This document shows, in pieces, positions 3,518 to 60,326 of a stretch of 60,326 nucleotides of DNA. Position 1 is the stretch's first letter. Every line of letters starts with the position of its first letter. The notes under the pieces were generated by a model. That model made no database searches and was not told where the DNA came from. It saw only the letters and a list, made by a program, of their open reading frames with translations. The stretch comes from Oscillatoriaceae cyanobacterium M7585_C2015_266 (GTDB taxonomy: Bacteria > Cyanobacteriota > Cyanobacteriia > Cyanobacteriales > Oscillatoriaceae), in contig DVEG01000035.1 in NCBI GenBank assembly GCA_015295835.1, positions 1 to 60,326 of the forward strand, in the 5' to 3' direction. The translations under genes and the position numbers were made by a program.

Positions 3518-3526
3518 AATTGTATA

Positions 3527-3889
<363 letters not shown>

Positions 3890-5884: not shown

Positions 5885-6067
5885 ATATATTATTTGTCTT
5901 TGTTTGCTAAGCAGATTTTGGCTATAAAAATTATCAAAGAATAAATCAATGAGTAGAGCCTGCATTAGATTCGCAATCACCCACTAAAGAGCTAGTGAAC
6001 AGAACATAACCACTTTCGTCGAGTGCCGAATAGTTGTACAATAACAGGTTGTACTCTATGGCGGATT

Positions 6068-7363: not shown

Positions 7364-7372
7364 TCACTAATA

Positions 7373-7418
7373 GGTAATGGGAAAAGTATTTCAATTCCTC
7401 ATTACCCATTACCTTTTT
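7373..7418. terminator. Hairpin terminator between convergent purB and SH3 genes
   Basis: GGTAATGGG (7373-7381) pairs with CCCATTACC (7405-7413) over a 23-base loop, followed by five T residues on the plus strand. It lies between two convergent stops. Confidence 0.55.
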
Positions 7419-7424
7419 AATCAG

Positions 7425-8111: not shown

Positions 8112-8305
8112 ATAATTATTATCCTGTGTGCCTGCCGCCTGCGCTTCTAGCAAAAACTGGTATCTCTCGCCGCGCAGAAAAACAGCATTTTTAATTATTT
8201 TTTCTAGTTGACAGGAATTCATATTTCTTCTCCAATTGTCAAAGTACAAGCTGATTTTGAAGACGATTAAGCGAAATAATTTATACCTAACGAACTGGAA
8301 AAACT

Positions 8306-9061
8306 ATGAAAGTCAATCAACGGACTTTACTTGTAATTTCTATTGCAATGCTTGTCGGGCTGTGGTTGACTATTACCTTGCCTTTTCAGATAGCGAGCGC
8401 TCAAACGCCCACACCAATCGAGAGCCAATCGCACCCTCTCTCCACAAGTGTGCTCCCATTGGAGAATATTCAAGCTAAGCTTCCAGACTGGGCTCGTCTA
8501 GTTGATATACGCTCCGTGAATGCTAACATCAGACTTGATATCCGCTATGCGACAACTAATAATTTCCTTAAGAAAAAACTCTATCCGGAAGCTAGATGCA
8601 TTCTCAGAGCTAGCGTGGCGGAAAAACTATCCCTAGTTCAAAATGACTTACAAAAAAGAGGGCTGGGGTTAAAAGTCTTCGATTGCTATCGCCCCCTTTC
8701 TGTAACCAAGCAGATGTGGGCAGCCTTGCCCGACGAGCGCTATGTAGCTAATCCCGCTAGAGGTTCTCGGCACAATCGCGGTGCAGCAGTCGATTTGACT
8801 CTAGTTAACCGCAATGGCTCCGAACTGGTGATGCCCACTGGATTTGACGATTTTACAGAAAAAGCAGCCCGCAATTATCAGGGTTCAGGGGTTAGCGCCC
8901 AAGCTCGGAAAAATAGTCAGTTGCTCGAAGAGGTGATGAGAAAATATGGGTTTCTCCCCATCACCTCAGAATGGTGGCACTTCGATTCTACAGATTGGCA
9001 GAAATTTAGCATTCTCGACATTAGTTTCGATGATATTCCTAAACCTATAGGAGCTAAGTAA
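8306..9061 (+). CDS. D-alanyl-D-alanine dipeptidase (VanX/DdpX type, peptidase M15D)
   Basis: A 251-residue exported zinc dipeptidase. The signal segment is residues 8-33 (LLVISIAMLVGLWL through ASAQ). The M15D motif SRHNRGAAVD gives zinc ligands H156 and D163, and SEWWHFD supplies catalytic E222 and ligand H225. VanX enzymes cleave D-Ala-D-Ala; in non-resistant bacteria they are thought to recycle wall dipeptides. Here export and the two flanking SH3 genes suggest a wall-turnover role rather than glycopeptide resistance; no vanH or vanA ligase is nearby. It is followed directly by a strong terminator. Confidence 0.9.
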   Translation: MKVNQRTLLVISIAMLVGLWLTITLPFQIASAQTPTPIESQSHPLSTSVLPLENIQAKLPDWARLVDIRSVNANIRLDIRYATTNNFLKKKLYPEARCILRASVAEKLSLVQNDLQKRGLGLKVFDCYRPLSVTKQMWAALPDERYVANPARGSRHNRGAAVDLTLVNRNGSELVMPTGFDDFTEKAARNYQGSGVSAQARKNSQLLEEVMRKYGFLPITSEWWHFDSTDWQKFSILDISFDDIPKPIGAK

Positions 9062-44956: not shown

Positions 44957-45344
44957 GGTTGCATCGCCTTTACTTGATTGGGTATTGGGAAGTCATGAGG
45001 CTATGACATTGGGTATTAGTGCTGAAAACTCTAGTGCCTCTTCGGTTGAATTTTTCTCTACACTTGAGTCAAAGCCGAAGAACACTCCCAACTCTATTGC
45101 TCCATGCCCTTTTTCCCTACTCCCTATTCCCTATCAAAACTTGATATTACCCTAGTCAAGAACAAAAAGTTCATCTTTGATGAAATTTTATATTTGGCAT
45201 CCAGGGGAGGGCTGCCGCACTTTAGCGCGCTTGCCCTGCTGTTTTTGTGCCCGGAATTGAATTTTATACTTCTTACCCTCTCCGCTTGCTAATTCTGGCA
45301 GGGAAAATTATTGAGTATAATAGTTTCCAAGCCTATACAGGTGC
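44957..45344. other. Intergenic region, about 390 bp
   Basis: No convincing gene. Apparent small frames on the plus strand have no family features. The region would hold the promoter of the methyltransferase gene on its left side. Confidence 0.4.
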
Positions 45345-46121
45345 CTACATACCCATAATTGAATAGCCTGAATCAACGTAGATAATTTGACCCGTAATCC
45401 CACTAGCCAAATCGCTGCACAAAAAGGCGGCAACATTGCCCACTTCCGTTTGTGTGACTGTACGACGTAGGGGCGCCACCTTTTCGACGTGGTGAATCAT
45501 GTCCAAAATCCCGCTCACTGCCGAAGATGCCAAAGTACGGATGGGGCCGGCTGAAATGCCATTGACACGGATATTTTGAGGACCAAGTTCGGCTGCCAGA
45601 TAACGTACATTCATTTCTAGTGCTGCTTTCGCAATCCCCATGACATTATAGTTGGGAACGACGCGGACGCCGCCGAGGTAAGTGAGGGTGATAATACTTC
45701 CCCCTTCTGTCATCAAGGGTTTGGCTTCAGCAGATAACTGAATTAGGGAATAGGCGCTGATATCAAGGGCGCGGATAAAGCCTTGCCGGGATGTTTTGCT
45801 AAAATCCCCAGAAAGTTCTTCTTTGTCGGCAAAGGCAAGACAATGAATCAGAATGTCCAGCTTTCCCCACTTCTCCCGTACCTTTTCAAAGGTGGATTGA
45901 ATTTGGGTGTCATCTTGGACATTGCAGGGAACAAATAAACTGGGATTTAGGGGTTCTACGAGTTCAGCTACTTTTCTTTCCATGCGCCCTTTTTCATCCG
46001 GCAGATAGGTGATGCCAAGATTTGCCCCTGCTTTGTGGAGTTGTTGAGCAATCCCCCAGGCGATTGAGCGATTATTGGCAATACCGGTGACAAGAGCGTT
46101 TTTTCCGGTTAAGTCAAGCAT
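45345..46121 (-). CDS. fabI: Enoyl-[acyl-carrier-protein] reductase (NADH)
   Basis: A 258-residue short-chain dehydrogenase-type enoyl-ACP reductase, the last step of each fatty-acid elongation cycle. The N-terminal ALVTGIANNRSIAWGIA nucleotide motif with the typical FabI spacing is present, as are DILIHCLAFADKEELSGDF and the catalytic Tyr and Lys in PNYNVMGIAKAALE. It ends in the family's GQIIYVDSGYSIMGM. It diverges from ntcA across a 357-bp gap. Confidence 0.95.
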   Translation of the reverse strand: MLDLTGKNALVTGIANNRSIAWGIAQQLHKAGANLGITYLPDEKGRMERKVAELVEPLNPSLFVPCNVQDDTQIQSTFEKVREKWGKLDILIHCLAFADKEELSGDFSKTSRQGFIRALDISAYSLIQLSAEAKPLMTEGGSIITLTYLGGVRVVPNYNVMGIAKAALEMNVRYLAAELGPQNIRVNGISAGPIRTLASSAVSGILDMIHHVEKVAPLRRTVTQTEVGNVAAFLCSDLASGITGQIIYVDSGYSIMGM

Positions 46122-46478
46122 AGTAATCCATAATAGTTAATAGGGTAATTGATAGGCCACATAATGCCAGAACAATCTAAACCCCTCAGGTAAGCATACC
46201 ACAGCTTGCTTTCACCTACCCGATATCTCCCTCGCTATGATAAGTGTCAAACTGAAAGCGCTTTTAACTCAGTTTTCTCGCGGTAGGGCTTTCACTTGGC
46301 TGGGGAAGGCTTTCCCTGAATCGTCCAGTTATTCACGGCACCTCAAAAATTATGTATCGAAATGTACAAAAAAACATAGAAGAGTAAGTTTATCTGTTTT
46401 TAAGTCAAAGTACGAGCGCAAGATAATTTGTTTGTTAAATAGTAGTCACACAAAATAGCGAGGGCACGGGTAAAGGCA
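46122..46478. other. Divergent promoter region of fabI and ntcA
   Basis: Holds the NtcA-type palindrome at 46354-46367. A 73-codon open frame (46237-46458) spans it and is not credible as a gene. Confidence 0.6.
46354..46367 (+). promoter_or_regulatory. NtcA-binding site (GTA-N8-TAC) upstream of ntcA
   Basis: GTATCGAAATGTAC is an exact GTA-N8-TAC match, 111 bases before the ntcA start. A TAAGTT at 46385, a TAN3T-type -10 element, lies 17 bases after it; usual spacing in NtcA-activated promoters is about 20-24, so this is slightly short. NtcA autoregulation is established in other cyanobacteria. Confidence 0.65.
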
Positions 46479-47156
46479 ATGGAGCTGGTAATGATGCAAG
46501 ATAAACCGCTCGCATCTGTGTTTCGTCAGATGGGAGGTGGAGGGTTTCCTCTGGTGGTGGAAACCTATGAACGAGGCAAGACTATTTTTTTCCCGGGAGA
46601 TCCGGCTGAAAAGGTATATTTCTTGCTCAAAGGCGCTGTCAAACTCTCTAGGGTATACGAAACAGGAGAAGAAATTACTGTGGCGCTACTGCGGGAAAAT
46701 AGCGTGTTTGGAGTTTTGTCTCTGATTACAGGGCACCGCTCTGATCGATTCTACCATGCTGTGGCGTTTACACCAGTAGAATTGTTCTCAGTACCTATCG
46801 AACAAGTTGAAAAGGCGCTTAAAGAAGATCCAGAGCTGTCAATGGTGATGCTGCGGGGTTTGTCTTCCAGAATTCTGCAAACAGAAATGATGATCGAAAC
46901 TCTGGCACACCGCGATATGGGTTCGCGGCTGGTGAGTTTCCTGCTAATTCTCTGCCGCGATTTTGGGGTTCCCAGCCCAGAAGGAATTACTATTGACTTG
47001 AAGCTCTCTCATCAAGCGATCGCTGAGGCAATCGGCTCGACGCGAGTCACTGTCACTCGCTTACTAGGAGATTTGCGCCAAGAAAAAATGATCTCAATTC
47101 ATAAGAAAAAAATTACAGTCCACAATCCTGTCGCTCTTAGCCAACAGTTTACCTAA
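46479..47156 (+). CDS. ntcA: Global nitrogen regulator NtcA
   Basis: A 225-residue CRP/FNR-family transcription factor. Blocks essentially diagnostic of NtcA are present: [57 protein letters not shown] and the helix-turn-helix [20 protein letters not shown]. It senses 2-oxoglutarate and, with PipX, activates nitrogen-assimilation genes. An AAAGG precedes the ATG at 46479; ATG 46494 is an alternative. An NtcA box upstream suggests autoregulation. Confidence 0.97.
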
Positions 47157-47465
47157 CCCTTTTGCCAACATGACTTTGACCAAGAAATTTCGCTACAAGC
47201 TACCTTCTAATCGAGGACTTTGAATAGCTAAAACCAAGCTATCGCCAAGTTCAAGCATCGAGGCGTGTTAAAATGGCATCAAGAGATATTCTCTCTGCAT
47301 CGATTCTCCTCGCTCCTGGCTCGTTCCCTAGCACCTCTATCATCTCGATCATAAAATAGTCAGGCTCCCTCCTGGAATAGAAAACCTGTCACAGCCTTGC
47401 TTAAACGCTAGGCTGTAATTTGGTTGGCACTGGGATTGCAAAGTCAAGAGCGTTTCTAAGGATAG
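47157..47465. other. Intergenic region, about 310 bp
   Basis: No gene and no clear motif seen between ntcA and the DUF3084 gene. AAGGAT lies at the very right end, just before the DUF3084 start. Confidence 0.4.
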
Positions 47466-49034
47466 ATGAATACCGCCGCATACGTCCTGATTCTGTCTAT
47501 CTTATTATTGGGCGGCGCGATCGCAACAGCAGGGGATCGCATTGGCACTCGTGTTGGTAAAGCTCGTTTGAGTCTGTTTAACCTCCGCCCTCGCCAAACT
47601 GCCACCCTCGTCACTATCCTAACCGGTGTTTTAATTTCTGCCTCAACTCTGACTATCCTGTTTGCCACCAGTGAATCCTTGCGCAAAGGGCTTTTTGAAT
47701 ACGATCAAACTCAGAAAAAATTGCGAAATGCCCGCAGCGAATTGCAAGAAACTCGCCGTCAACTCGAACAAACTAAATATCAGAAAAGTAAGGTGGAAAA
47801 AGAATTATCCCACGCTAAATCCCAGCAAACTATAGCCCAACAGCGTCTCCTGGAAACTAATCAGTCTCTGCAAACAGTTTTGGCTGAACTAGAAAAACGT
47901 CTCGCTCAACAAGCCCGCACTGAAACTAATCTTAGAGAAACTCAGCAAACACTGGAACGCATTGAAGCTGATTTTCAAGCTAAACGAGCAGAACTGGAAA
48001 AACTGCAAGCCGAACGGCAAGCACTTATCGTAATGCTGGCAGATGGAAAAGCTCAAATTCAACAGCGCGAGCGCGAAATTCAACAGCGCGATCGCCAAAT
48101 TTCCGAGCAAGATCGCGAAATCTCTCTGCAGGAAAAACTCCTCGCTGAACGTAATCAACTCCTCGCTCAACGCGAACAACAACTGAAGCAGCAAGAACAA
48201 CTCCTTGCTGAAAGGGAAAAACAACTCGCTGAACGTGATCAAATTCTTGCTGAACGAGAAAAACAACTTGCCGAACGCGATAAATTACTTTTAAAGCGCG
48301 ACGAACTTCTCGCTGAGCAAGAAACTCGTTTAAAAGAATTGGCTACTCAAAAAGCTTTCATAGAACAAGAAGTCAAATTTCTCGAACGCGATTTACAAAT
48401 TATCAAAGAAGGTACGATCGTACTGCGTCGCAATCAAGTTCTTGCTTCTGGTGTCGTCCGCATCCTTCAACCTACTGCCGCTCGTCAAGCAGTAGACAGA
48501 CTTTTGGAAGAAGCAAATCGCAATGCTCTTAATTTAGTTCGTCCCGGTTTACATAATAATAATCAGCAAATTATAGAAATTCCTCGGGCTGAAGTTGAAC
48601 AGCTCATCAATCAAATTAATGATGGTCAGGATTATGTAATACGGATTTTGTCAGCTGCAAATTATCTGCTCGGAGAAGAAAAAATACAAGTCTTTATCGA
48701 TGCAGCTCAAAATCGCGTTGTTTTTCTCCCAGGAGATGTGGTGGCAACTACTTCTATCGATCCGGCTGTAATGAATGGGCAACAAATTCGAGAGCGAATT
48801 GAATTGCTTCTGGTTGCTTCTTCTTTCCGAGGTCGTCGCGTTGGCATTATTTCTGATACTATACAGATCGCAGATGGTCGTATTGAAACATTGATTCGTT
48901 TTATCCAAATACTTCAACAGCAACCTTACCCAGTAGATGTACAGGCGATCGCCGCTGATGTCACTTATACCGCTGGCCCCTTGAAAATGAATCTGGTTGT
49001 TGTCAAAAATGGTAAAATATTATTTCAAACCTGA
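47466..49034 (+). CDS. DUF3084 protein with a long coiled coil
   Basis: A 522-residue membrane protein of the DUF3084 family. Two N-terminal helices (residues 4-21 and about 45-68) flank a cytoplasmic-type loop GTRVGKARLSLFNLRPRQTA. A coiled coil of about 220 residues follows, rich in Glu, Gln and Arg, with repeats such as LAEREKQLAERDQILAEREK, and a globular C-terminal domain starts near residue 310. The coiled-coil DNA has near-repeats of a 21-24-bp unit. Next to it, 40 bases away, is an RNase H-fold gene, a pairing I recall in cyanobacteria. Function unknown. Confidence 0.8.
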   Translation: MNTAAYVLILSILLLGGAIATAGDRIGTRVGKARLSLFNLRPRQTATLVTILTGVLISASTLTILFATSESLRKGLFEYDQTQKKLRNARSELQETRRQLEQTKYQKSKVEKELSHAKSQQTIAQQRLLETNQSLQTVLAELEKRLAQQARTETNLRETQQTLERIEADFQAKRAELEKLQAERQALIVMLADGKAQIQQREREIQQRDRQISEQDREISLQEKLLAERNQLLAQREQQLKQQEQLLAEREKQLAERDQILAEREKQLAERDKLLLKRDELLAEQETRLKELATQKAFIEQEVKFLERDLQIIKEGTIVLRRNQVLASGVVRILQPTAARQAVDRLLEEANRNALNLVRPGLHNNNQQIIEIPRAEVEQLINQINDGQDYVIRILSAANYLLGEEKIQVFIDAAQNRVVFLPGDVVATTSIDPAVMNGQQIRERIELLLVASSFRGRRVGIISDTIQIADGRIETLIRFIQILQQQPYPVDVQAIAADVTYTAGPLKMNLVVVKNGKILFQT

Positions 49035-49074
49035 TTTTTCTAAAATCTCAAAGAAATAAAAAAATAGCAATACT

Positions 49075-49488
49075 ATGAGCAATTCCACCGATTTTATAAT
49101 AGGTTTTGATCCGGGACGACAAAAGTGCGGTATTGCTGTGATGCGAGCAGATAGACAAGTGGTTTATCACCAAGTGGTGCCCTCAGAAGAAGCGATCGCA
49201 ACTATTCAATCCCTATGTCAAAAATTTCCTATCCACCAGCTAGTTATCGGAGATCAAACTAGCTCCAAAACCTGGAAACAGCAACTCGCATCCGTTTTAA
49301 ATCCTTCCCTGTCTCTGATAATGGTAGATGAACGCTACAGCACTTTGGAGGCACGCGATCGCTATTGGCAAATGTATCCTCCCAAAGGATTATTGCGTTT
49401 CCTTCCTAAAGGAATGCGACAACCCCCCCGCCCCATTGACGATATTGTAGCAATTGTTTTAATTGAAAGATATTTAGCTAAAAAATAA
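49075..49488 (+). CDS. RuvC/YqgF-like RNase H-fold protein
   Basis: A 137-residue protein with the RNase H-type first strand IIGFDPGRQKCGIAVM (catalytic Asp at 11), a central LVIGDQTSSKT, an Glu-containing VDERYSTLEARDRY and a final RPIDDIVAIVLIERYL whose acidic pair could complete the site. This matches the YqgF/Holliday junction resolvase-like family, though it is not the canonical RuvX sequence. Likely a structure-specific nuclease or RNA-processing enzyme. It follows the DUF3084 gene by 40 bases. Confidence 0.75.
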   Translation: MSNSTDFIIGFDPGRQKCGIAVMRADRQVVYHQVVPSEEAIATIQSLCQKFPIHQLVIGDQTSSKTWKQQLASVLNPSLSLIMVDERYSTLEARDRYWQMYPPKGLLRFLPKGMRQPPRPIDDIVAIVLIERYLAKK

Positions 49489-49536
49489 CGCCTTCATAGG
49501 CATTACTATATTTCTTATCTACCCCTCCTAAACTTA

Positions 49537-50211
49537 TCATATAAGTAGTAGAGCAAACAAACCACACAAAGCAATACCATCAAATACTCCGGCACCACCA
49601 ATGCTTAAAATTCCAGGAGTCATACTTTCTATTTCCGGTAAGTGCAGAAGATCAGCCCCAATTAGAGTGCCCAAAACTCCCCCTGCAAAAGCAACTGGAG
49701 AAGCATTAATTCCTCCTGTCAATAAAAAAGCACTCATAGCCGCCGTCAAGGGTGCTACTAAAGCATTCATCTGAATACCAATTCCTGGTACAATTTGAGC
49801 AGAATAGTAACTTACTACAGTTACGAGCGCAGTTACAGCCAGAATTTGTAAAGGGTTAGCTCTACTAAACTGGTATAGAGCCAATAGCGTAGGAATAAAA
49901 CCGCCCCCTACATTCAAAGCTACAATCGTTTTCTGCTCGATTTTACGCAGAGGAATACCCCAGAAAAAACGAGTACTCCATAACTCCAGCCAGTCGGGAA
50001 CAAGTTCTACTTTTGACACCCGCTCATAAAGAGGTACATTGATTGTACTACCAATAATAATCAAAATCAGTATTAGAAGAGAAGTCTCAGGGGCAAACCC
50101 CAACTTGCTAACAGCTACACGCACTGCTTCAATAGTGATAACCAACCATAAAAACGGGAAAGTCAAAACCAAAACCAGAAACAACAGTAAAGTTACAGGT
50201 AGATATATCAT
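49537..50211 (-). CDS. DUF1614 membrane protein
   Basis: A 224-residue membrane protein with about seven hydrophobic segments, including LLILILIIIGSTINVPLYER and a C-terminal GGAGVFDGIALCGLFALLL. This matches the DUF1614 family found in archaea and cyanobacteria. IVALNVGGGFIPTLLALYQF is the characteristic mid-protein block. Function unknown. It is the last clearly intact gene before the decayed region. Confidence 0.8.
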   Translation of the reverse strand: MIYLPVTLLLFLVLVLTFPFLWLVITIEAVRVAVSKLGFAPETSLLILILIIIGSTINVPLYERVSKVELVPDWLELWSTRFFWGIPLRKIEQKTIVALNVGGGFIPTLLALYQFSRANPLQILAVTALVTVVSYYSAQIVPGIGIQMNALVAPLTAAMSAFLLTGGINASPVAFAGGVLGTLIGADLLHLPEIESMTPGILSIGGAGVFDGIALCGLFALLLI

Positions 50212-50234
50212 TTACGCTTTTAAAAACCCCCTTC

Positions 50235-50890
50235 TCACTCATACAACTTTTTTATTTTTTGCCACCCCTTCATCAAAGCATTGTTTTCTTCAAAATACTC
50301 AGCTAAAGCTTGATTATATGTTTCTACAAAAGTTTGCTGAGCTTCTTCAGACATATCTACTTTCATTCAGCGGCAATTTGATCTATTCCTTCTAGCTTCC
50401 CCTTATTCATACTAGGAATCTGCATTTCTGTAGTTGCCACTTCCTCCCAGCAGCTTGCAGCAGTAAAAATCTCTCCCAACTCTCCCAAATTATTAGCATG
50501 CACTTCTACAACAAGTAAAAATTCTCCTGCCTATACTCTAGTTTGATAAATAGCTGCTCTTTCCTAAGGATAGAGTGCGCCACTTGTATCTTTACATCTT
50601 TCCTTGTCATAAAACCTGTGATTCTTGCTTCTGTCTGAAAGTTGCGTCTAATGATAGAAGTTTGTTCTTTGGGTAACCCCTATCCAGCAGGCGACAGCAT
50701 CTTGTAATTTCTGTTCACTCTTGAAAGTAGCAGAAACATATTTTACTGTGGTTTCTAGAAATGTAGAAGCATATTTAGCATATTTTTTTGATTGTAACTT
50801 TACATTCCTAACTCTACAGGTAAAGTGTAAGTTAGTCAAGGGGGCATCCTTGTTTTGCAGCCTTATGCAAAAGTTGTAAGCCATCAAATG
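50235..50890 (-). pseudogene. Decayed gene resembling a stress-protein/ChaB fusion
   Basis: On the minus strand, three pieces in different frames follow one another. Right piece (50648-50887): contains KYVSATFKSEQKLQDAVACW. Middle piece (about 50371-50570): AGEFLLVVEVHANN and CWEEVATTEMQIP, interrupted by a TAG. Left piece (50235-50366): MKVDMSEEAQQTFVETYNQA ending WQKIKKLYE, which looks like the C-terminal half of a ChaB-family protein. The first parts recall the general-stress-protein domain that I remember fused to ChaB in cyanobacteria. Stops and frameshifts between them mean it cannot be expressed as one protein; the 43-residue ChaB-like piece could be. Confidence 0.45.
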
Positions 50891-51405
50891 TACCTATTGC
50901 CCAGAAATGCCCTATAGCTAAACTTTAGGTTAAAATTCTAGGTGCTAAATCGAATATACCTAACCAATGCCGAGTTTGCCCACCTATTCCGGATACTGCT
51001 AAATGCACTTTGTGGCTCGCAATAAAAAAGAGCCAGTATAATGCCCATAACGCCCAATACACCCCAGATGGTTGCTTTATCTGATAAGTTGTATGGTAAC
51101 CGCCCCATCCAGTATCAGTAGATTTCCTTTAGGTTGAGCCTTAGAAGCCGTAAACTTCAAGTCAAGCTGTTTTTATGGTATCCTTTCTATACCAATTTGT
51201 ATTTGATTTATCCCCTTGATGCTTCCAAGAAGTCGCTACAGAGCGTGCTACACTAAGGAAGATAGTGAAAATCGCTCTCCAGGTGCGGAGAAAGAATCAC
51301 TGGGGCTCCCGAAGATTTTGTGGTGAATGGTATCCCCAACATAACAAGCCACTATACCTGATAGTATACTAGACTACTTTTATCGTCATTAATTTTAAAT
51401 TTACA
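50891..51405. other. Non-coding region with a helicase gene fragment
   Basis: No intact gene. The only recognisable item is the degenerate copy of the PLD-helicase at 51150-51215. Confidence 0.5.
51150..51215 (+). pseudogene. Degenerate fragment of the PLD/SNF2 helicase gene
   Basis: Reads KLQVKLFLWYPFYTNLYLIY, matching KLQVKLFLRYPLHAKLYLIY in the helicase gene at about 56886-56945. Nucleotide identity is high over about 60 bases and fades outside. The catalytic His and Lys of the PLD motif are lost in this copy. Confidence 0.7.
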
Positions 51406-52430
51406 ATGAATCTGTTAACAAAATTTAAACAAGTTTCGGTTGTATTAAATCGTTTTCTAGTAAAAAAACTAAGTGAAAATGAACTCACATTCCATGAGTA
51501 TCAGTGCCAATTTACTCAGCCACTACAACAAGGTGATTAGCAACGAGCGATTTCAAGTATTTGTTACAAATTGGGAGTAACCGCTGTTCGATTAGGCAGT
51601 CGAATCATTACTAGGGAAGAAGTTAGTAGCTACTCAGTAGATTGTGCCAACGCAAAAGGCAGACGCTTATAAAGCTCTAAATGTCGCTTTGGGAGTCTTG
51701 TATAAAGCTGGTTGGCAACCTGTATGCTTAGCATTGAATGAGCCTGAAGTTGCTGAACTGATTATTGGTTTTGATACAGGCACAAATCGGCAACTGTATT
51801 ATGGTACTTCTGCATTTGCTGTGCTGGCGGATGGATAAAGCTTGGGTTGGGAGTTGCCAGATGTTCAAAGAGGAGAAACCTTTTCTGGAAAAGCAATTTG
51901 GCAAATAGTATCTAAGTTAGTTCTCAAATTTTATCAGAGGTATAATCGCTTGCCTAAAAAGCTACTTTTGATGAGAGATGGATTAGTTCAGAAAGGAGAA
52001 TTTCAGCAAACTATAGAAGAGCTAAAAAAGAAAAATATAGCTGTAGATGTTGTAGGAGTTCGTAAAAGTGGCGCAGGCAAATGGGACATGAGAATCATTA
52101 AAATGGGAAAATAGCTTATTGTGATGCCGAAAAGGTACTGTTATTTTTACTCCAAAAGAGAAGTCATTCACTTTGGTTACAAGCCAGCCAATTAAAAACA
52201 TCGGGAGTGCAATATCTCTGCGAGTAGTGCACGAGTATGGTAATACTCCCCTAGAGTTGTTAGCTTTACAAAGCTATTATCTAACTCTACTGCTCCCTGC
52301 AAGCGGGTTTCAGTATTGTCGGTTACCTTGGGTATTACACATTGCTGACAGAAGCAGTAAAGAATTTCAACGGATAGGGCAGATTAGTATTTGGCAAAAT
52401 ATCAGCCGTGAAAAATTGTTTGCTGTCTGA
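51406..52430 (+). pseudogene. Decayed prokaryotic Argonaute (long-A type) gene
   Basis: Pieces read in order as a cyanobacterial Argonaute. N-terminus 51406-51540: MNLLTKFKQVSVVLNRFLVK, then an in-frame TAG, then AISSICYKLGVTAVRLGSRI in the same frame. After about 51635 the frame changes and the text jumps to PTQKADAYKALNVALG, then LIIGFDTGTNRQLYYGTSAF, a TAA at 51836, ELPDVQRGETFSG, LLLMRDGLVQ, and RVVHEYGNTPLELLALQSYY with WVLHIADRSSKEF to a stop at 52430. Two one-base losses in A-runs near 52110 and 52130 shift the frame. The catalytic tetrad D-E-D-D is still readable. The PAZ, MID and linker regions, some 450 codons, are deleted. It resembles the Synechococcus elongatus Argonaute as I recall it. 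Confidence 0.85.
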
Positions 52431-52777
52431 AATTGGTAAGATAACAAATCACTGAACGCGATCGCATGCTAAACTATTTTTAGCATCCAGAATCTATGAC
52501 GACAGATGATTTTAACCGGTGAGTTGCTTCGTGATGGTGTGCATAGGCTTTATAATCATCGTGGATAAAAATTTAAGCGGAAACAGGTGATCAGGAAGTA
52601 AGCGTATTGCAAGGTGAAACGCTGATTATCTCACTAGAATTTGGACGGCATCACTGCTGCCCAGATTCTCCAGGGGAAAAGCGGTGATGTTCTGCAGCAA
52701 GGACAAAATTATCTCAATGTTTTCTGTTTGTAGCTTATAGATTTAACAGAGCGATCGCGTTGATTTTTCAATTTCCC
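52431..52777. other. Non-coding region, about 350 bp
   Basis: Between the Argonaute relic and the integrase relic. No gene recognised; a short open stretch near 52640-52730 (DGITAAQILQGKSGDV) may be another remnant but I cannot assign it. Confidence 0.4.
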
Positions 52778-53215
52778 TTACTCATCCAATGGACTCCTCA
52801 CCCCATAATCTCCCCGGTTAAGAACGTGCGTGTAGATCATTGTTTTTTTGACATCCTTGTTACCGAGTAATTTCTGTATCGTGCGCATGTCATAGCCATT
52901 TTGCAGCAAGTGAGTTGCGAAGCTGTGGCCAAGAGTATGACAGCTGGCTTTTTTGTTAATTCCTACCTGCCTGATTGCTGCCTTGACTGCCTTTTGAATC
53001 ACACTTTCATCCAAGTAATGACGACGGATAACACCACTGCACGGTAGAGGAAGGCTTCCACTTCAGATGCCCCATATCCTTGGGGTGGCGTTTGTTATGG
53101 AAAAGGATATAACGGCGAATCCTGGCCACATAGCTTTGCTCAGTGCGATCGCTGTAGTGTTTGAGTCCGCATCTCGTATCTAGTCAAGGAGCTTGCGTTT
53201 CGGCCGGAGGTGGCG
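52778..53215 (-). pseudogene. Decayed integron-type tyrosine recombinase (IntI-like)
   Basis: On the minus strand the N-terminal part reads RPKRKLLD, an in-frame TAG, IRDA, then after a frameshift LKHYSDRTEQSYVARIRRYI and LFHNKRHPKDMG, another frameshift, and [11 protein letters not shown]: the start of integron or phage-type integrases. The middle is deleted. The C-terminal part (52778-53014 and slightly upstream) reads [40 protein letters not shown], and [18 protein letters not shown]. The catalytic Tyr is kept but the second catalytic Arg (HTLRH) has become Gly. RRHYLDE and NRGxxGVRSPLD are integron-integrase features. Inactive. Confidence 0.8.
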
Positions 53216-53547
53216 GTTCCATATCAAAACTGGCTGTACCCCCTTAAGTTTAGCACTCAAAGCTTTCCTGTGACTGACTTTCAGCCTTTCTAAGGAAGAG
53301 TGCATATCTACACCTGCTTCTTTAGGAGCCAAAAAGCTTATCCAGCAAAGCTTTTGCCGCCATTTTTATAGAGTGACTGCGAGTAAGGGTACTATTCGCC
53401 GCCTAATTAGTAGTTATGCCAAATAGCGAGAAGTCCGCTTATGTTATTTGTCGGCGCCCCAGGCTAGCTAAGCAAAGATAGTTGGCTGCGTTGTTAAGTT
53501 CATAGAGATGAACAGCGCGAAATGCAACAAATTATTAAGCAAGCGGG
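53216..53547. other. Region between integrase relic and attC-like site
   Basis: In an integron this position would hold attI and the first cassette. A GTTAAGT at 53493-53499 matches the GTTRRRY core used in attI/attC sites, but one heptamer is weak evidence. No intact gene. Confidence 0.35.
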
Positions 53548-53640
53548 GCATAACACATCATTGGAGCCGACGCCAACAAAGGTGTGAGACTTTAGTGAAA
53601 AGCAAAATCTCTCTGCTGCCGCTCAATTCAGCCGTTAGGA
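53548..53640 (+). other. attC-like integron recombination site (decayed)
   Basis: The left half GCATAAC...TTGGAGCCGACGCC (53548-53574) and the right half GCTGCCGCTCAATTCAGC then GTTAGGA (53614-53640) are partly complementary. The right half read backwards gives CCTAACGGCTGAATTGAGCG. The left copy has TTGGAGC against TTGAGC on the right: one extra base, like the extrahelical base of L boxes. R'' is GCATAAC and R' GTTAGGA, close to RYYYAAC and GTTRRRY. The site lies on the side and orientation expected from the integrase relic. Confidence 0.6.
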
Positions 53641-53693
53641 AGAAATTGACTTTTTACACCTTCACCCTTATGCTTATGTCAGAAAATTCCTAA

Positions 53694-54685
53694 CGTAACT
53701 CTGCTTTCAATGCTGCTGCGAGTTCAAAAGTTTACCACCCTCAACTGGATGATATCGCCAAATACACACCAGAAAAGTTAAGGCATCTGGACAGGGGTGG
53801 TATACGTAATGGTCCGGGGCGAACTGAAGCGCAAGCTCAACAAATGTTGGACAAAATTCCACCCTCTCAAAGGGCAGGAGTTGATGGCCAATCTGCAGCT
53901 GCTAAAGTCAAAGAATATTTAGCTGATAAGGATGCTAGTCATATAATACCACACAGTAAAGGTGGCTCAAGTCATCCAGACAATATCAAATGGGAAAGTA
54001 AAACTGCTAATTGTGCTCGTGGCGAACAATACATGACACGCCAAGAGCAAAGACAACTCGATATCAAAGCACAAATTGATAATCTACGTGGAGCATTAAA
54101 AGCTGGTATCGAAGCTGCATCCAAAGGGGCGTTAATTGGTGCAGTAACGACGGTTCCTTTCTCTCTGCTCAGAAATGCGTTGCGAGTTGTACGAGGGGAA
54201 TGTCGGCTCAAGACGCTGCTCTGGAAACTATAAAAGAAACCGCTAATGGTGCGGGAATGGGAGCGGCGACAGCGTTCACAGTTACAACGGTTGCAGCCGC
54301 TTGTCCTCCTGTTGCCTTGGCACTAACAGCTATGTCGCCAGTTTTACTCGCTGCTGGTGGTACTGGAATGATCTATGAGTTTTTCAAGATTCTTGATGAC
54401 CACAAGCAACAAGTTAAAGAGTATTATGCATCTCTGACGCAGAGAGAGCTGCAATATCTCCAGGATATTGAGAATAAACTTCTATATGAACACTCTAAGA
54501 ATTTAGAGTTTCTGAATGAGTCTAAAGCATTAAATGCTGAGATTACGCAAAGACCTATCGAGTCTGGTGTGGAAGGTGCATTAAAGCGATATCTCGAGTC
54601 TGCTGCAATTGCTGAATCGTTGGGAGCTACACCAATCGGTAACAAACTGTTGCCCGTTTTCCAGAAATCTTTGCCCTCAGCTTAA
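53694..54685 (+). pseudogene. HNH-domain and membrane-segment gene broken by a frameshift
   Basis: The first frame (open from 53694, first ATG 53844) contains ASHIIPHSKGGSSHPDNIKW and ESKTANCARGEQYMTRQEQ, an HNH-nuclease-like pattern, and continues to VVRGE at 54199. The second frame (ATG 54200) continues the protein: MSAQDAALETIKETANGAGM, a hydrophobic pair (TAFTVTTVAAACPPVALALT and PVLLAAGGTGMIYEFFKI), then a helical charged tail. Restoring one A at about 54199 would make one protein of roughly 330 residues. No ATG precedes 53844, so the N-terminus may also be lost. Lies just after the attC-like site, so it may be a former cassette. Function unknown; a toxin or defence effector is possible. 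Confidence 0.6.
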
Positions 54686-54716
54686 CAATTTCAAATTTCA
54701 GAATTGGTGAATACTT

Positions 54717-55241
54717 ATGTTTTTTCTGCTTCCTTTAGTCGGTGTAGCGGTGGGTGCTACAGTTGCTGCCCTTATTAATGATGCTAGCAGTGAAAAAGAT
54801 AGACAAGCAGCAGAGCATCATAGAAAAGTTGCTAATGATCTCACTAGCAAATACTCGAATCTAGAGAAAAGGTATAACAAATATGTTGATAAAAGCAAGA
54901 GTCAAATCGATGAGTTGACTAAGCAGCACGCTTTAGATGAAGCAGAGAAAGATATTCTGCGCTTAGCTCTCAGATTGCAGCAGAGCTTGTATATGCTTAT
55001 GTGGGACATAGATAACAATCCTACGTATGAGGCTTTGATAAAATTTAAACAAGCTGTTGAGGCAACTAACAAAGTTTTAGAAGAGTTGCGTGAAGAGACA
55101 ATTCAAATTCCAAATAAATATTTTTCTCGCCACCTGACAAGAGTTAAGATAAGTGAAAAAATTGCTGAAACAAAGCGAAAGAAAATTAAGAGTAGCAGCG
55201 CAACTATTCTGGTGCAGCGGATTGACCACTTTTCCACGTAG
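54717..55241 (+). CDS. Hypothetical protein with glycine-rich N-terminal membrane segment and coiled coil
   Basis: A 174-residue protein. The first 20 residues (FFLLPLVGVAVGATVAALI) are a glycine-zipper-like hydrophobic segment. The rest is charged and helical, with SKYSNLEKRYNKYVDKSKSQ and EKDILRLALRLQQSLYMLMW. It lies 31 bases after the broken HNH gene and may be its partner. The last 13 residues read into DNA antisense to another decayed gene, so the natural C-terminus may have been altered. I do not recognise a family. Confidence 0.5.
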   Translation: MFFLLPLVGVAVGATVAALINDASSEKDRQAAEHHRKVANDLTSKYSNLEKRYNKYVDKSKSQIDELTKQHALDEAEKDILRLALRLQQSLYMLMWDIDNNPTYEALIKFKQAVEATNKVLEELREETIQIPNKYFSRHLTRVKISEKIAETKRKKIKSSSATILVQRIDHFST

Positions 55242-55675
55242 AGAAAATGCGATTGAAATCTTCCTGTGCCGTCACCCGTCGCTCAAGTGTAGCAATCCGC
55301 TGCTGTTGTTTATCGAACTTGCGATCGCACACCTGCGCACACCTGAATCAACGACAACAGATCACGTGCTGAGGCTGAGCTGCTTACCCTCGAAGCTCAC
55401 GTGTGTTGCGGTTAAGGGCTTCTCGCGTTTCTAGTAGCGACTGGTGGCTCACCGGCATATTCCGCAAATTGCAGCTTTTGGAAAATTTCATGGGTGAGCT
55501 GCAACAGTGCCTCTTCATAAGTACACCCCCTCAAGCTATCCACAAATTTGCCAAACAAGCTCCGACTAGCACGATAGGCAGTCAAAGACTTATTCGTGTG
55601 AATGCCATTCACCAGATCAATCAGCAATTGGTCATGGATGAGGGGAACCCGCTGTTGGACATTAGAAAGGCTCAT
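55204..55675 (-). pseudogene. Decayed gene of unknown family
   Basis: The start ATG 55675 gives MSLSNVQQRVPLIHDQLLID and LVNGIHTNKSLTAYRASRSL, then RGCTYEEALLQLTHEIF, then the frame breaks near 55412. Later pieces in other frames read REALNRNTRELRG and RKFDKQQQRIATLERRVTAQ, with FNRIFSTWKSGQSAAPE and a TAG at 55204. The pieces form one helical protein when joined, with at least two frame breaks and probably a deletion after LFGKFVDSL. No family assigned; I have a vague resemblance in memory to diguanylate-cyclase-regulator-like proteins, not usable as evidence. Confidence 0.5.
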
Positions 55676-56021
55676 AACACTGATGAACTTGGCAGAAATT
55701 GTCCTACCCACTCTAGATAGCTTGGAATTTCTTTCAGAATATTTTGAGTATTAGCCTTAAGCTCATTAAGTTGCCGCATCTCTTCTTCCTTTTCATAATA
55801 TTAATTAAATTCTGTATAACAAAATCTTTAGTTTATTTTTGGGCATTCTCTTCCTCTTTTAAAATACGATTAACATCTGTTTTTGCCTTGTTTTTTAATA
55901 TATTAACCTCATATTCAATATATTTCTTGATATTATTTTTGTATTCCTCAATGAGATTTATAAGCTTGACTGATTTTTCGACTACCTCAATATCTTGATT
56001 CAGTTGCTTGACTTCTTTCAT
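55676..56021 (-). pseudogene. Broken helical (coiled-coil) gene upstream of the previous one
   Basis: ATG 56021 has a good AGGGG site and gives a 62-residue piece MKEVKQLNQDIEVVEKSVKL to ILKEEENAQK and a TAA at 55833. The text continues in the same frame as TKDFVIQNLINI and then, one frame over, as YEKEEEMRQLNELKANTQNI and IPSYLEWVGQFLPSSSVL, ending in an ATGA overlap with the next gene's start. Restoring one stop and one frame would give about 115 residues. The ATGA coupling suggests the two were an operon. Function unknown. Confidence 0.5.
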
Positions 56022-56072
56022 GAATGACCCCTGTGCAAAACTGGCGAAATTATAAGCATAGAGCATAAAACC

Positions 56073-56206
56073 ACAGAGGCACGGAGACCAAACTTTCTCT
56101 GTCCCCGCCTCCGTGGTGAATTAGCTTAACAGCGCAAGAGTGGAAAGTGGCAAGGATCGTAAATGGGATAAACTGTTACAGCAGAGGCAGGGAGGGCACG
56201 GAGATG
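56073..56206. repeat. CACGGAG-type repeats ahead of the GxxExxY gene
   Basis: ACCACAGAGGCACGGAGAC (56073-56091), the inverted GCCTCCGTGGTGA (56109-56121), and GAGGGCACGGAGATGG running into the start codon (about 56191-56206) use the same words as the 42-bp array at 14250-14424. The first two can pair. Confidence 0.6.
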
Positions 56207-56425
56207 GAGTTGGATGAAATATCGGGTCAAGTGATTGGTGCGGCGATCGAGGTGCATCGAGAGTTGGGTCCAGGATTGTTAGAATCGGCTGTTGAAACCC
56301 TCTTACCCATTCACGAAGCCCAGCTTTTGACCTACCTCAAACTTCGCAAGCTCCGTCTAGGCTTGCTCATCAACTTCAACGTCCCCATCCTCAAAAACGG
56401 CATCAAACGCCTCCTAAACGGTTAA
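56204..56425 (+). pseudogene. GxxExxY protein with internal deletion
   Basis: A 73-residue frame from MELDEISGQVIGAAIEVHRE. The normal family start ends at LGPGLLESxYExxL; here LGPGLLESA runs straight into VETLLPIHEAQLLTYLKLRK, the C-terminal part. About 55-60 residues that carry the GxxExxY-region and core strands are missing, in frame. The remaining ending, RLGLLINFNVPILKNGIKRL, is normal. The product would be non-functional as a GxxExxY protein. The family is a PD-(D/E)XK-like fold of unknown function. Confidence 0.8.
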
Positions 56426-56426
56426 C

Positions 56427-56478
56427 CCCCCTCTCTGTCCCCTCTGTCCCCTCTGTGCCCTCTGTGCCTCCGTGGTTC
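56427..56478. repeat. Inverted CACGGAG-type repeats after the GxxExxY gene
   Basis: A run of CCCCTCTGTCCCCTCTGTGC-type units ending CTCTGTGCCTCCGTGGTTCC is the inverse complement of the CACGGAG words upstream of the gene. It also lies just before the helicase start. Confidence 0.6.
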
Positions 56479-56506
56479 CTTCCTCAACCTCCCTGGAGTC
56501 AAACCA

Positions 56507-59500
56507 ATGTCCAGTATTTACGACAATATCGAAAAGCCTCTTCTACCTGAGTTGCAGCATTACCTACAACAAGCCTACCGTGCTGATTTCTGTGTGGGCT
56601 ATTTTAACTTGCGAGGATGGCAAGAAGTTGATACCTACATTGAGCAATTTAAGGGGGGTGAGGGGCAGGCTTGTCGATTGCTGGTAGGTATGTACCGGTT
56701 GCCGAAAGACGAACTAAAACAAGCATTAGCGATCGGAGTTGAGCAAAAACGCATTGATCAAAAACAAGCTCTGCAGCAACAAACTCTGATAGCGGAGGAG
56801 TTTCGGCAGCAGTTAACCTATGGTGTGCCCACTACGGACTCTGAAAAGGGATTGCGTCGGTTGCGATCGCAACTTATAAGTGGTAAGCTTCAAGTCAAAC
56901 TGTTTTTGCGGTATCCTCTCCATGCCAAATTGTATTTGATTTATCGCGATGATCGCGCCACCCCCATCATTGGTTATGTAGGCAGTAGTAATTTAACCCT
57001 ATCTGGATTAAAACATCAAGGGGAACTCAATGTGGAAGTGGTCGAACGAGACGATACATACAAGCTGAAGCAGTGGTTTGAAGAGCGTTGGAACGATAAG
57101 TTTTGTTTAGATATTTCTGATCAACTAGCAGAGATTATTGATGAAAGTTGGGCGACGGAGAAATTACTTAAACCCTATTTTATTTATTTAAAAATAGCTT
57201 ATCATTTGTCTCAAGAAGCACGGGAGGGGTTAAGTCGCTATCAAGTTTCTAAAAAATTTAAATTACTACCTTTTCAAGAAGCAGCAGTGCGCATTGCTGC
57301 CCATTATGTCAGTCAGCGGAATGGTGAGATAATTGGGGATGTAGTTGGTTTGGGAAAAACACTGGTGGGGATAGCAATCGCCTACATCTTTGAGGAAGAG
57401 TATGACACCAGTACCCTGATCATCTGCCCCAAAAATTTACAAAAAATGTGGCAAGATTATATTGATAAATATGGTCTACGGGCCAAGGTGGTGTCCATAA
57501 GCCGCGTCACTCAAGAACTCCGCGAAATCCCAAAGCGCTTCTGCACCGTTTTAATTGATGAAAGTCATAACCTCCGCAATCGCGAGGGCAAACGCTACCA
57601 AGCCATCCAAGAGTACATTGAGCAAAATGGCAGTCGCTGTATTCTCCTGACGGCAACTCCCTATAATAAATCCTACCTTGACTTGTCCGCCCAGTTGCGC
57701 TTATTTCTGCGTCCGGATACAGATCTGGGCATTAAACCCGAAGCCCATATCCGTCGGGTTAAAGGTGAGAAAAATTTTCCCAGCCTTCACAACAACATTC
57801 CTGTTCGCTCCCTATTGGCTTTTGAGCAAAGTGTTGAACCGGAAGATTGGCAGCAGCTAATGAGCCGCTACATGGTGCGCCGCACACGCAGTTTTATTAA
57901 GAAAACCTATGCTAAACGGGATGACAACGATCGCTATTATCTAGAATTTGCAGACGGGCAGCGCTTTTATTTTCCTACACGGCAACCCCGTACCCTAAAA
58001 TTTCCAGTGGGTGAGCCGCAAACCGATCCCTACGCTCGCCTCTACAGTGAGGCTGTTGTTGACAATTTGAAATCCCTGCACCTCCCTCGCTATGGCTTAG
58101 GTAAATACGTAGCCAAAGAACCCTCCCCTCTACCGACAGATGAAGAGCGGAAACTACTGGGTAATCTATCCCGTGCGGGCAAGCGGCTCATAGGCTTTTG
58201 CCGTACTAATCTGTTTAAGCGGCTAGAAAGTAGCGGCTTCACCTTTTTGCAATCGTTAAAGCGGCATATTTTGCGAAACTACGTTTACCTGCACGCCATT
58301 GAAAATAATCTGGATTTACCCATTGGCACCCAGGATGTCAGCTTTTTAGAGCTAGACACAGATGAGGATGAAACCCAACTGCCTACCGACGAGGATACTG
58401 AAGAGTCTAATGTTTTGCCTGATGAAGCTGCGTCAGTAAACGAAAAGGAAAGCTCAGAACATTTGAAACAAAGTGCTGCTAAAATCTATCAAAATTACCA
58501 GGCTCAGTATTCGCGTCGATTTAAGTGGATTCGCGCAAATTTATTTAATAAAAAAGAACTGCAAAAAGATTTGCAAGAAGATATTCAAATTTTAACGCAA
58601 ATACTAGTTCTTAATCAGGTTGATACTTGGAATTAAGATACGGATAATAAATTTGCTACTTTAATCGATTTACTTCAGAATAAACATCCCAAAGAAAAAG
58701 TCATTATTTTCACCCAATTTGCAGATACCGCGAATTATTTGTCTCAATCATTATGTGAAAAAGGTATCCGCCAAGTGGGTTTAGTAACAGGTCAATCAAG
58801 TGATCCTACGAGTATGGCTTGGTGTTTTAGTCCGCGTAGTAATAATAAAAATATCCCAGCCGAGGAGGAGTTGCGTATTTTGATTACGACGGATGTTTTG
58901 AGTGAGGGGCAAAACCTCCAAGATTGTGCCATTATTGTTAACTTTGATTTGCCTTGGGCGATTATTCGCTTGGTGCAACGAGCCGGACGCGTAGATCGTA
59001 TTGGCCAGCAAGCGGACGAGATTCTTTGTTATTCTTTTTTGCCGGCGGATGGGGTAGAGCGCATCATTAACTTGCGCGGTAGGTTGCGCGAGCGCTTGCA
59101 GCAAAATTAAGAAGTTGTCGGCTCTGACGAAGCCTTTTTTGAAGATGAGCAAGCACGCGAGATTCTTCTCAACTTGTATCATGAACGCTCAGGTATTCTC
59201 GAAGAAGTAGATAAAGCAGAAGAAGTAGACTTATCTTCAGAAGCTCTGCAAATTTGGCAAAGTGCTATTAATGCTAATCCTGAACTTGAGAAAATTATTG
59301 AAAACCTACCTAAAGTCGTTTACGCCACCCGTGAGCATCAACCCACTACTAGGGATCCAGAAGGTGTACTGGTATATTTGCGCACGGAAAACGGTATTGA
59401 TGCCCTAGCATGGATAGACAAGGAGGGCAACAGCGTCACGCAATCGCAATCCCGAATTCTCCGCATGGCAAAATGCAGTATTGATACTCCGCCTTTACCC

Positions 59501-59905
59501 CGCCATCCCCAACATTATGAACTGGTAGCACGGGGGGCAGAACTCATTGCTGAGCAAACAAAAATTGTTGTCGCTACCCTCGGCAATAAGCTTAGTATAG
59601 CAACACGGGTTTATGATCGCCTGATGGCATATGTTCAAAATATCCGCAAAAATACTCCTCTGCTGGCAATGGAAACAAAGTGGAAAAATTTAGAACTGGC
59701 TATTGAAGAGATATCTCAGTATCCGCTGAAGCAAAATGCGATCGCCAACCTCAATCAGAAACTCAAAGCAGGCATCAACGACAAGGAGCTAGCCGATCTA
59801 GTCATATCTTTGCGAGAGCAAAATGAGCTATGTGTAATCAATTCAGACAAGCAATACGGTGTGCAAATTATCTGTTCGATGGAAATTTTTTCAGGTATAA
59901 ATTAA
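56507..59905 (+). pseudogene. PLD-nuclease/SNF2-type helicase gene interrupted by two in-frame stops
   Basis: The reading frame is continuous over 1133 codons apart from TAA at 58634-58636 and TAA at 59108-59110; there is no frameshift. N-terminal 230 residues: phospholipase D-like nuclease with LHAKLYLIYRDD and GYVGSSNLTLSGL. Helicase: Walker A GDVVGLGKTLVG, TLIICPKNLQKMWQ, DEAH-type VLIDESHNLRNR, CILLTATPYNKS. The second part (from 58637) has VIIFTQFADTANYL, ITTDVLSEGQNLQD and motif VI LVQRAGRVDRIGQ; the third is a C-terminal domain. The first ORF (709 residues) keeps PLD and the first RecA lobe only. Either the gene is dead or only fragments act. With the following genes it looks like the helicase of a restriction-type defence operon. 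Confidence 0.8.
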
Positions 59906-59920
59906 AGGAGAAGCAGGGGA

Positions 59921-60052
59921 ATGGCAACGCGAGCAAAGAAGAAGAATTTTTCGAGTTTTACCTATGCAGAAGCATTGAAAGCCTGTCATCTAATCAATTA
60001 CTGGAGCAAAATATTGACATTTATGGTATTGTAAGCAATGGGGAAGTGTAGC
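59921..60052 (+). pseudogene. Deleted second gene of the helicase operon
   Basis: ATG 59921, preceded by AGGGGA, gives MATRAKKKNFSSFTYAEALK, which looks like the start of a known companion protein of such operons. After about 59980 the frame changes, and the other frame reads LSSNQLLEQNIDIYGIVSNG and EV, then TAG where a Trp (GEVW) is expected. Most of the gene between is deleted. The family appears to be a restriction-endonuclease-like protein (memory-based); inactive here. Confidence 0.6.
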
Positions 60053-60158
60053 AAATTAGCTTACGTTGTAATCACAACGAAGGGGATAACTAGCAATCAT
60101 TTCAGTTAACAAAATATACTCTAATTTATTAGAAAATTAAGTCATTTGTAAAGCAAGA

Positions 60159-60326
60159 ATGTCAGGAAAGCAATTGAATCGTCAACGTGCCCATCAGTAC
60201 CTCCAACAGTTTGATTTTGAATCACTATTTATTGAAGAATTGGGCTGGGATACCGTCAATCGCGAAACATTATCCCTTGAAATCGCTCAACAATCATTTG
60301 AAATAAACTCAATCGCCGAAAAGCGA
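60159..60326 (+). CDS. Start of an Eco57I-type restriction-modification methylase (cut by the window edge)
   Basis: 56 codons without a stop to the end of the window. The start MSGKQLNRQRAHQYLQQFDF and FESLFIEELGWDTVNRETLS, ending INSIAEKR, matches the N-terminus of large Eco57I-class restriction-modification methyltransferases as I know them. The helicase, small protein, methylase order fits a defence operon. Whether the rest is intact lies outside the window. Confidence 0.65.
   Translation, partial: MSGKQLNRQRAHQYLQQFDFESLFIEELGWDTVNRETLSLEIAQQSFEINSIAEKR

Follow-up and report, generated by a model that had tools for sequence, protein, structure and literature searches.

A broken long-A Argonaute in a cyanobacterial genome is probably a dead integron gene cassette beside a dead integron

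Positions 51406-52430 of contig DVEG01000035.1 carry a broken long-A Argonaute of the Thermus thermophilus Argonaute (TtAgo) type, an identification confirmed by sequence matches far above chance. The window, i.e. the whole stretch of DNA that was analysed, is this entire contig (C9; 60,326 bases), which belongs to a cyanobacterial draft genome of 3.98 Mb (35 contigs, 98.5% complete). There is nothing unusual in the death of the gene; what is new is its probable carriage as an Argonaute gene cassette. Judged from sequence comparison, with a probability of roughly 0.84, this lineage of Argonautes is spread in the form of integron gene cassettes and the window contains a dead cassette beside a dead integron. 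We observed directly a dead gene with its lesions, an attC site behind it and a broken integrase; among relatives, one has an attC site on either side of an intact Argonaute frame and another has its copy within an attC array. The parts of the dead cassette are as follows:

51330-52528, + strand: dead Argonaute cassette (leader, broken gene, decayed attC); left edge approximate, set by eye, attC at the right end
51406-51627, + strand: N-terminal piece of the Argonaute with TAG at 51538-51540, placed by profile and frameshift-aware alignment
51622-51629, + strand: deletion junction, out of frame, about 387 codons lost (rest of N, PAZ, most of MID)
51629-52078, + strand: PIWI piece with three tetrad residues and the stops TAG 51638-51640 and TAA 51836-51838
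52079-52132, + strand: frame-broken stretch between the PIWI pieces
52131-52430, + strand: C-terminal part of PIWI, containing the last tetrad residue (D, 52347-52349) and ending at the original stop
52434-52528, + strand: decayed attC immediately after the Argonaute gene (covariance model R1, described below: 43.9 bits, E 1.9e-11; 7/16 pairs non-standard)

Translation of 51406-52430 yields Argonaute pieces in order across three frames. The PADLOC prokaryotic Argonaute (pAgo) profile PDLC02387 matches 51406-51537 (E 1.4e-8) and 51541-51660 (E 5.2e-7) as well as the PIWI pieces 51644-51835 (E 4.6e-28), 51842-52111 (E 6.9e-39) and 52173-52427 (E 1.5e-35). The top PDB match is TtAgo with E 2.9e-14. 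An initial annotation, made from the letters alone, had read a dead long-A Argonaute with a legible catalytic tetrad here and had named a translated search for a PIWI match as the check; both the search and the tetrad bear this out. All four codons can be read (D 51773-51775, E 51875-51877, D 51977-51979, D 52347-52349) and align with TtAgo positions 478, 512, 546 and 660 (counted by hand), which we take to be the catalytic residues of TtAgo. In the rows of 35 relatives, two of which represent one gene, the first three columns are D, E and D throughout; in the fourth, 32 rows have D, two have H and one has a gap. The relic thus conforms to the DEDX pattern as D-E-D-D. It lacks the full-length N/PAZ/MID/PIWI architecture, PAZ and most of MID being deleted, and is a pseudogene of the TtAgo-type long-A family, not a working member of it. 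Pfam Piwi PF02171 does not detect the relic, and Pfam returned no Argonaute family for any of the five pieces; since the PADLOC profile does detect it, detection depends on which profile is used. Within the own genome, a search recovered three ordered Argonaute stretches (51433-51639, 51617-52087 and 52128-52427), which match positions 2-70, 415-569 and 575-672 of 672 in the profile, and no second copy at E ≤ 0.001 beyond these.

The decayed attC starts at the fourth base after the relic Argonaute stop and has the same orientation as the gene. The same element with complementary arms lies a few bases 3′ of the Argonaute stop in three relatives, L037 (a Thermosynechococcus metagenome-assembled genome (MAG) that also carries L036), L038 (Gloeomargaritales VI4D9) and L039 (UBA999), and it also precedes the Argonaute in L038 and in L099, which belongs to the same class as the window organism and to another order. 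In L099 an open 743-codon frame (1477-3705), whose match from 1501 corresponds to residue 1 of L039, is an intact Argonaute between attC sites at 1349-1443 and 3720-3814 (82 and 93.5 bits). Ten attC sites on the same strand surround the Argonaute of L038 (1126-12859; seven used for the model R1, two weak at 32 bits), and a mechanical list of open reading frames (ORFs) gives short frames between them. Elsewhere in the L038 genome there are four attC sites at some 3-7 kb from a fragment of an integron integrase. By eye, a putative G/TT recombination boundary can be made out at the ends of the unit in L038, L039 and L099, and in L036 at its left end; the relic retains only a degenerate likeness of it. 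Its leader resembles, in a weak alignment, those of L036, L038 and L039.

Altogether we compared 36 distinct Argonaute genes, the relic included; records of one contig were merged, and the distant-type L022 and L023 were excluded along with the short fragment L024. An attC site stands directly behind the stop in the relic, L037, L038, L039, L047 (Chlorogloea CCALA 695, where it begins 20 bases after the stop) and L099. A further 29 genes have no attC match behind the stop, and L036 keeps a 21-base half-site. As a separate observation, L047:8614-8708 and L038:4818-4912 are nearly identical sites of a second attC type, the former behind the Chlorogloea Argonaute and the latter in the Gloeomargaritales array, so that this attC is shared across orders. 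A single contig of the Thermosynechococcus MAG carries both L036 and L037, at a distance of about 13.8 kb; these two Argonaute copies share only a 2246-bp block (6371-8616) at 99.8% with identical frames, one copy having the left end of the cassette and the other the complete attC.

The anatomy of the element is that of integron attC sites, which consist of complementary arms that form two helices with unpaired central bases, and the predicted pairing was examined at the sequence level. Nine sites, taken from L037, L038 and L039, went into the covariance model R1. In this nine-site alignment the stem pairs of R1 are formed in 93.8% of cells, compared with at most 54.2% in slid versions. A mix of eight sites (three also in R1, five not, the relic among them) contains six stem pairs that change on both sides, a number reached by 1/500 shuffles, and a covariation score reached by 0/500, although such shuffle tests overstate significance for related sequences; slid versions give at most 4 double-change pairs and 46.1% pairing. 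Pairing is kept across the set, with 7/16 pairs non-standard in the relic itself and folding energies of single sites mostly unremarkable (see below). Outside its training set R1 matches three places, namely the relic, L047 and L099, and it gave no match at E ≤ 1 in 221,806 bases of control sequence (160,000 from the own genome, 61,806 from the family). In whole-genome searches 150 candidates were scored per genome of 207-517 (of 350 in the own genome). Among these, only the relic site reaches E ≤ 0.01 in the own 3.98-Mb genome (G000), and in G388 and G398 the one match at this level is again the attC that follows the Argonaute. For G389 the number of matches is 24 and for G390 it is 7; G289 has one, away from its Argonaute. 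R1 rests mainly on one attC type and may therefore have missed sites.

A search of 45000-60326 with filters off, in which the site behind the Argonaute scored best, revealed a second attC site, and between the two sites lie the remains of an integrase:

52781-53044, - strand: remnant of a broken integron integrase, C-terminal part (covers TIGR02249 positions 227-314; E 3.0e-38, 132.9 bits against a curated cut-off of 265)
53067-53174, - strand: N-terminal part of the same integrase (TIGR02249 positions 8-43; E 9.3e-7)
53543-53644, + strand: second attC, on the 5′ side of the dead integrase (R1 26.0 bits, E 8.1e-6; 2/16 pairs non-standard)

Positions 44-226 of the integrase are missing, and the two pieces are the only integron-integrase matches of the own genome at E ≤ 0.001. 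With a broken intI and two attC sites the window does not hold a complete integron platform. An integron integrase above the curated cut-off occurs in 8/27 Argonaute-bearing genomes; matches at E ≤ 1e-12 are found in 17/27 of these and in 9/14 control genomes, so that the weaker ones say little. An open cyanobacterial IntI is present at G390 C5:50204-51145. In UBA999 an N-terminal integrase fragment lies about 5 kb from the Argonaute. We also considered an integron integrase as the usual neighbour of the Argonaute and rejected it: its tail motif was found once in 24 loci (L051), where the frame ends immediately, and looks like chance. The initial annotation had remarked neither on the attC behind the gene nor on the broken integrase beside it nor on the cassette organisation in relatives, and the finding therefore concerns something else than that first reading supposed.

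The relic falls into a clade with L007, L036/L037, L038, L039 and L099 (support 0.989), inside the TtAgo-type long-A Argonautes. Its nearest neighbour is weakly supported, with 0.732 for L007 in one tree and 0.249 for the rest without L007 in another. Protein identity to clade members is 77-80% in one alignment and 79-82% in another; for intact cyanobacterial relatives the figure is 77-81%. The clade crosses orders, and transfer is therefore likely. Profile matches were found in 107/388 genomes of the order, 15 of them at E below 1e-160 (the own genome, at 5.6e-76, is not one of them). A scan of the genome collection supplied 23 loci; a search of the phylum gave 8/386 genomes at E ≤ 1e-60, the own genome included. 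Only 2/7 other genomes of the family match the profile, both with a distant 741-aa type, and none of the seven matches the PIWI piece of the relic, the set holding no other genome of the genus. Intact copies, for which the initial annotation had proposed to look in related strains, occur among the relatives, for example L007 and L099. Carriage by phages was rejected after no match in phage records and no confirmed relative in viral contigs, and carriage by plasmids after 38 matching plasmid records, 27 of them from Thermus, all had less than 60% identity.

Several results weigh against the cassette interpretation. An attC stands behind the Argonaute in only 6/36 genes even with the relic counted, and the close relative L007 has none behind its gene in the R1 search. 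Upstream of the relic no complete attC was found; a match at 51334-51424 (14 bits, E 0.05) is unconvincing. In the nine-site alignment shuffles reached the observed pairing in 25/500, the double-change pairs in 271/500 and the covariation in 9/500 cases, which is weak support. Of six sites folded as single-stranded DNA only that of L039 clearly beat its shuffles (z -4.9), and the other five lay between z -2.2 and -0.1. Finally, cassette arrays usually lie on the 5′ side of the integrase; here this side holds the second attC, whereas the relic is found 3′ of the dead integrase, a position for which we have no explanation.

Part of this evidence would suit an ordinary horizontally acquired Argonaute pseudogene whose attC-like sequence is an inherited 3′ flank without a role in movement, in particular the 30/36 genes without a full attC behind the stop (the half-site of L036 included). 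Horizontal spread of cyanobacterial pAgos has been inferred before, and the account available in part names no carrier (PMC10653904). We nevertheless consider this reading improbable, at around one chance in ten: an idle flank would hardly account for the intact frame of L099 between two attC sites, for the interrupted Argonaute of L038 inside a ten-site array, or for two attC types, in L047 and L039, at the same position behind the gene. Less probable still is a different palindromic mobile repeat that ends beside Argonaute genes by chance. Its core GTTATC deviates from the textbook attC core GTTRRRY, and five of the six single-strand folds are not clearly above shuffles; however, the layout in two helices with a variable middle and unpaired bases at the centre, the double changes in six stem pairs, the ten same-strand copies around the L038 Argonaute and the integrases above cut-off in 8/27 Argonaute-bearing genomes all argue for attC.

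The lesions were placed by frameshift-aware alignment to four intact relatives (L007, L036, L039 and L045), and their exact places vary with the relative used. In-frame stops are found at 51538-51540 (TAG), 51638-51640 (TAG) and 51836-51838 (TAA); the first and the last had already been recognised, the second had been missed. An apparent extra stop at 52099 arises only against L039 and likewise depends on the relative used. A deletion had been estimated at some 450 codons with a junction near 51635. It is real and smaller, with 387, 387, 389 and 391 codons missing against the four relatives and an out-of-frame junction at about 51622-51628. Alignment of the DNA with L007 gives a deletion of more than 1.1 kb between two parts that are 75% and 76% identical to L007. 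The lost segment covers PAZ (PAZ_3 being residues 185-275 of L007) and extends to residue 461, so that most of MID is gone by domain limits that we assume from TtAgo. Microhomology at the junction is at most one base against L007, and we therefore claim no mechanism for the deletion. Frame changes proposed near 52110 and 52130 were roughly right; we found them between 52079 and 52103 and near 52132.

Broken copies make up 5/36 Argonaute genes: the relic, L038, L053 and L055 with one frame change each, and L021 (G174) with at least two and a stop; single frame changes in draft genomes may be errors, and L052, which runs off its contig, was left out of this judgement. In L038 a DDE-transposase insertion at 5782-7025, presumably an IS5-like insertion sequence, with 13-base inverted ends and a short flanking repeat, interrupts the Argonaute.

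We counted changes on the relic branch by codon position, at sites unanimous in four relatives. For positions 1, 2 and 3 they amount to 21/222, 20/274 and 19/92, compared with 17/222, 7/274 and 26/92 for the intact L007 at the same sites. Second-position change is raised in the relic (20/274 versus 16/817 in three control branches, p about 1e-4). The L036 branch was at first omitted from the pooled control; after its addition the comparison is 20/274 versus 23/1091 (p about 6e-5). A two-phase estimate of neutral change per site gave 0.061, 0.064 and 0.074 for three reference sets (95% ranges within 0.025-0.112), and 0.056, 0.061 and 0.072 (0.018-0.112) with the L036 branch among the controls. 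Across the three reference sets and both control sets, the neutral decay of the relic comes to about 6% per site, with a range of 2-11%. Simulated neutral change of 6-8% produces about 2.5-3.4 stops, and three were observed. Selection acted on much of the relic branch, as the third-position excess indicates, possibly in a donor, and the gene has been dead for the minor part of its separate history. The loss suspected to be recent is therefore recent in relative terms. That the lineage once had Argonaute defence is an inference: the selection may have acted in a donor, and 0/7 other family genomes match the PIWI piece. The L036 branch itself shows 7/274 changes at second and 2/68 at third positions, with 18 nonsynonymous versus 2 synonymous changes, and though its gene is open and duplicated it appears relaxed, which is unexplained.

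These counts also bear on two readings to which we give very little credence. An artefact of sequencing or assembly in an intact gene might be suspected in a draft of 35 contigs, the more so as frame changes near A-runs are a common type of sequencing error; a deletion of more than 1.1 kb, three stops and raised second-position change are hard to obtain from base errors, and the open long frames left of ruvX argue against general sequence error. A reduced but working PIWI protein, or a split one, is about equally implausible: truncated long pAgos without PAZ are known from part of the literature (PMC6299218) and open frames of 90 and 85 aa persist in the relic, but the stops and frame changes that cut the PIWI part led us to reject a functional remnant, and the codon-position counts indicate relaxed constraint.

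In the explanation that we favour, the dead integron cassette, a TtAgo-type Argonaute with a full tetrad would have arrived in this cyanobacterium as one gene preceded by a short leader and followed directly by an attC, a unit that integron integrases can excise and insert. Recombination catalysed by the integrase would have moved the gene, which presumably encoded a guided DNA nuclease like TtAgo and the Synechococcus elongatus Argonaute (SeAgo). Integron and cassette would then have decayed together, probably in this host: the Argonaute would have lost its approximately 387 codons and gained three stops and the frame changes, while the attC lost 7/16 stem pairs and the integrase gene its middle. 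It also appears likely, if a little less so than the cassette reading itself, that full-size, tetrad-complete Argonautes are cyanobacterial integron cassettes, that integron recombination is a main route by which the TtAgo type spreads across cyanobacterial orders, and that the cassette in the window died with its integron.

The surroundings of the relic are eroded. On the left, four same-family loci share a putative DUF3084 gene and ruvX (the gene paired with ruvX being, as we assume, DUF3084), and in both loci that reach far enough the pair is preceded by a gene that we take to be ntcA-like. Long frames left of ruvX are open. No frame of the window right of ruvX was found in the four same-family stretches, so the integron belongs to an accessory stretch. 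Between 50212 and 56500 the coding density is 0.40, whereas 112 overlapping segments of the same length, from eight sampled 20-kb stretches, all have at least 0.58, which is their lowest value. For 24 relative loci and one locus from the same family, the surrounding ORFs of 80 codons or more were compared with the window right of 49489. No partner gene emerged, the only matches being the Argonaute, the integrase piece (from L039) and a PLD-SNF2 helicase (from the same-family locus). The latter, an anti-phage-like gene with PLD and SNF2-helicase parts at 56507-59905, has in-frame stops at 58634 and 59108, and an open 1132-aa copy, 57% identical, exists in a same-family genome. Just upstream of the dead cassette, 81 bases (51140-51220) are 83% identical to part of this gene (56873-56953) and are perhaps the remnant of a second copy. 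A PDDEXK_3 gene remnant (56147-56422) lies among the eroded genes, and a small ORF at 53844-54230 has weak HNH and Ntox15 matches below curated cut-offs.

Among known systems the relic is closest to long-A pAgos of the TtAgo/SeAgo type, whose profile it matches end to end with a gap and whose tetrad it shares as D-E-D-D; TtAgo is its best solved match, and the likeness to SeAgo rests on published description. SeAgo is the closer to TtAgo of two cyanobacterial pAgos, according to part of PMC10269773, and lowers natural transformation and plasmid maintenance (PMC10653904, in part). Unlike these proteins the relic is dead and has integron-cassette flanks, which are absent from the portions of the published accounts available. 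Loss of an Argonaute in a TtAgo-type lineage has a counterpart in Thermus thermophilus HB27E TTP0026::ISTth7 (PMC6352166, in part), although the window gene was lost through a deletion and point lesions and the insertion case is its relative L038. The order of a defence gene followed by attC recalls the defence cassettes of the chromosomal integrons of V. cholerae and V. parahaemolyticus and of mobile integrons (PMC12409362, in part), and attC clusters without integrase (CALINs) carry defence genes as well (PMC8618304, in part). In contrast to those cassettes, the Argonaute is a full-size single gene of about 2.2 kb and occurs in cyanobacteria; cassette-borne defence genes are described as streamlined, with systems of more than two genes absent, in the section of PMC12409362 available. 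In a limited search, the available parts of the integron-defence literature (PMC12409362, PMC12342005, PMC8618304 and PMC9668308) contained no Argonaute cassette.

Predicted active cyanobacterial pAgos cluster with that of T. thermophilus and were probably acquired horizontally, and their patchy occurrence is credited to horizontal transfer by a vehicle that goes unnamed in the available part of that report (PMC10653904). The cassette boundaries described here offer a candidate vehicle for Argonaute transfer that can be tested at the bench. If the cassette reading is true, a large single-gene nuclease would join the integron-borne defence genes, otherwise described, in the part available, as streamlined (PMC12409362), and part of the cyanobacterial Argonaute supply would be gained, shuffled and lost as a unit like other cassettes.
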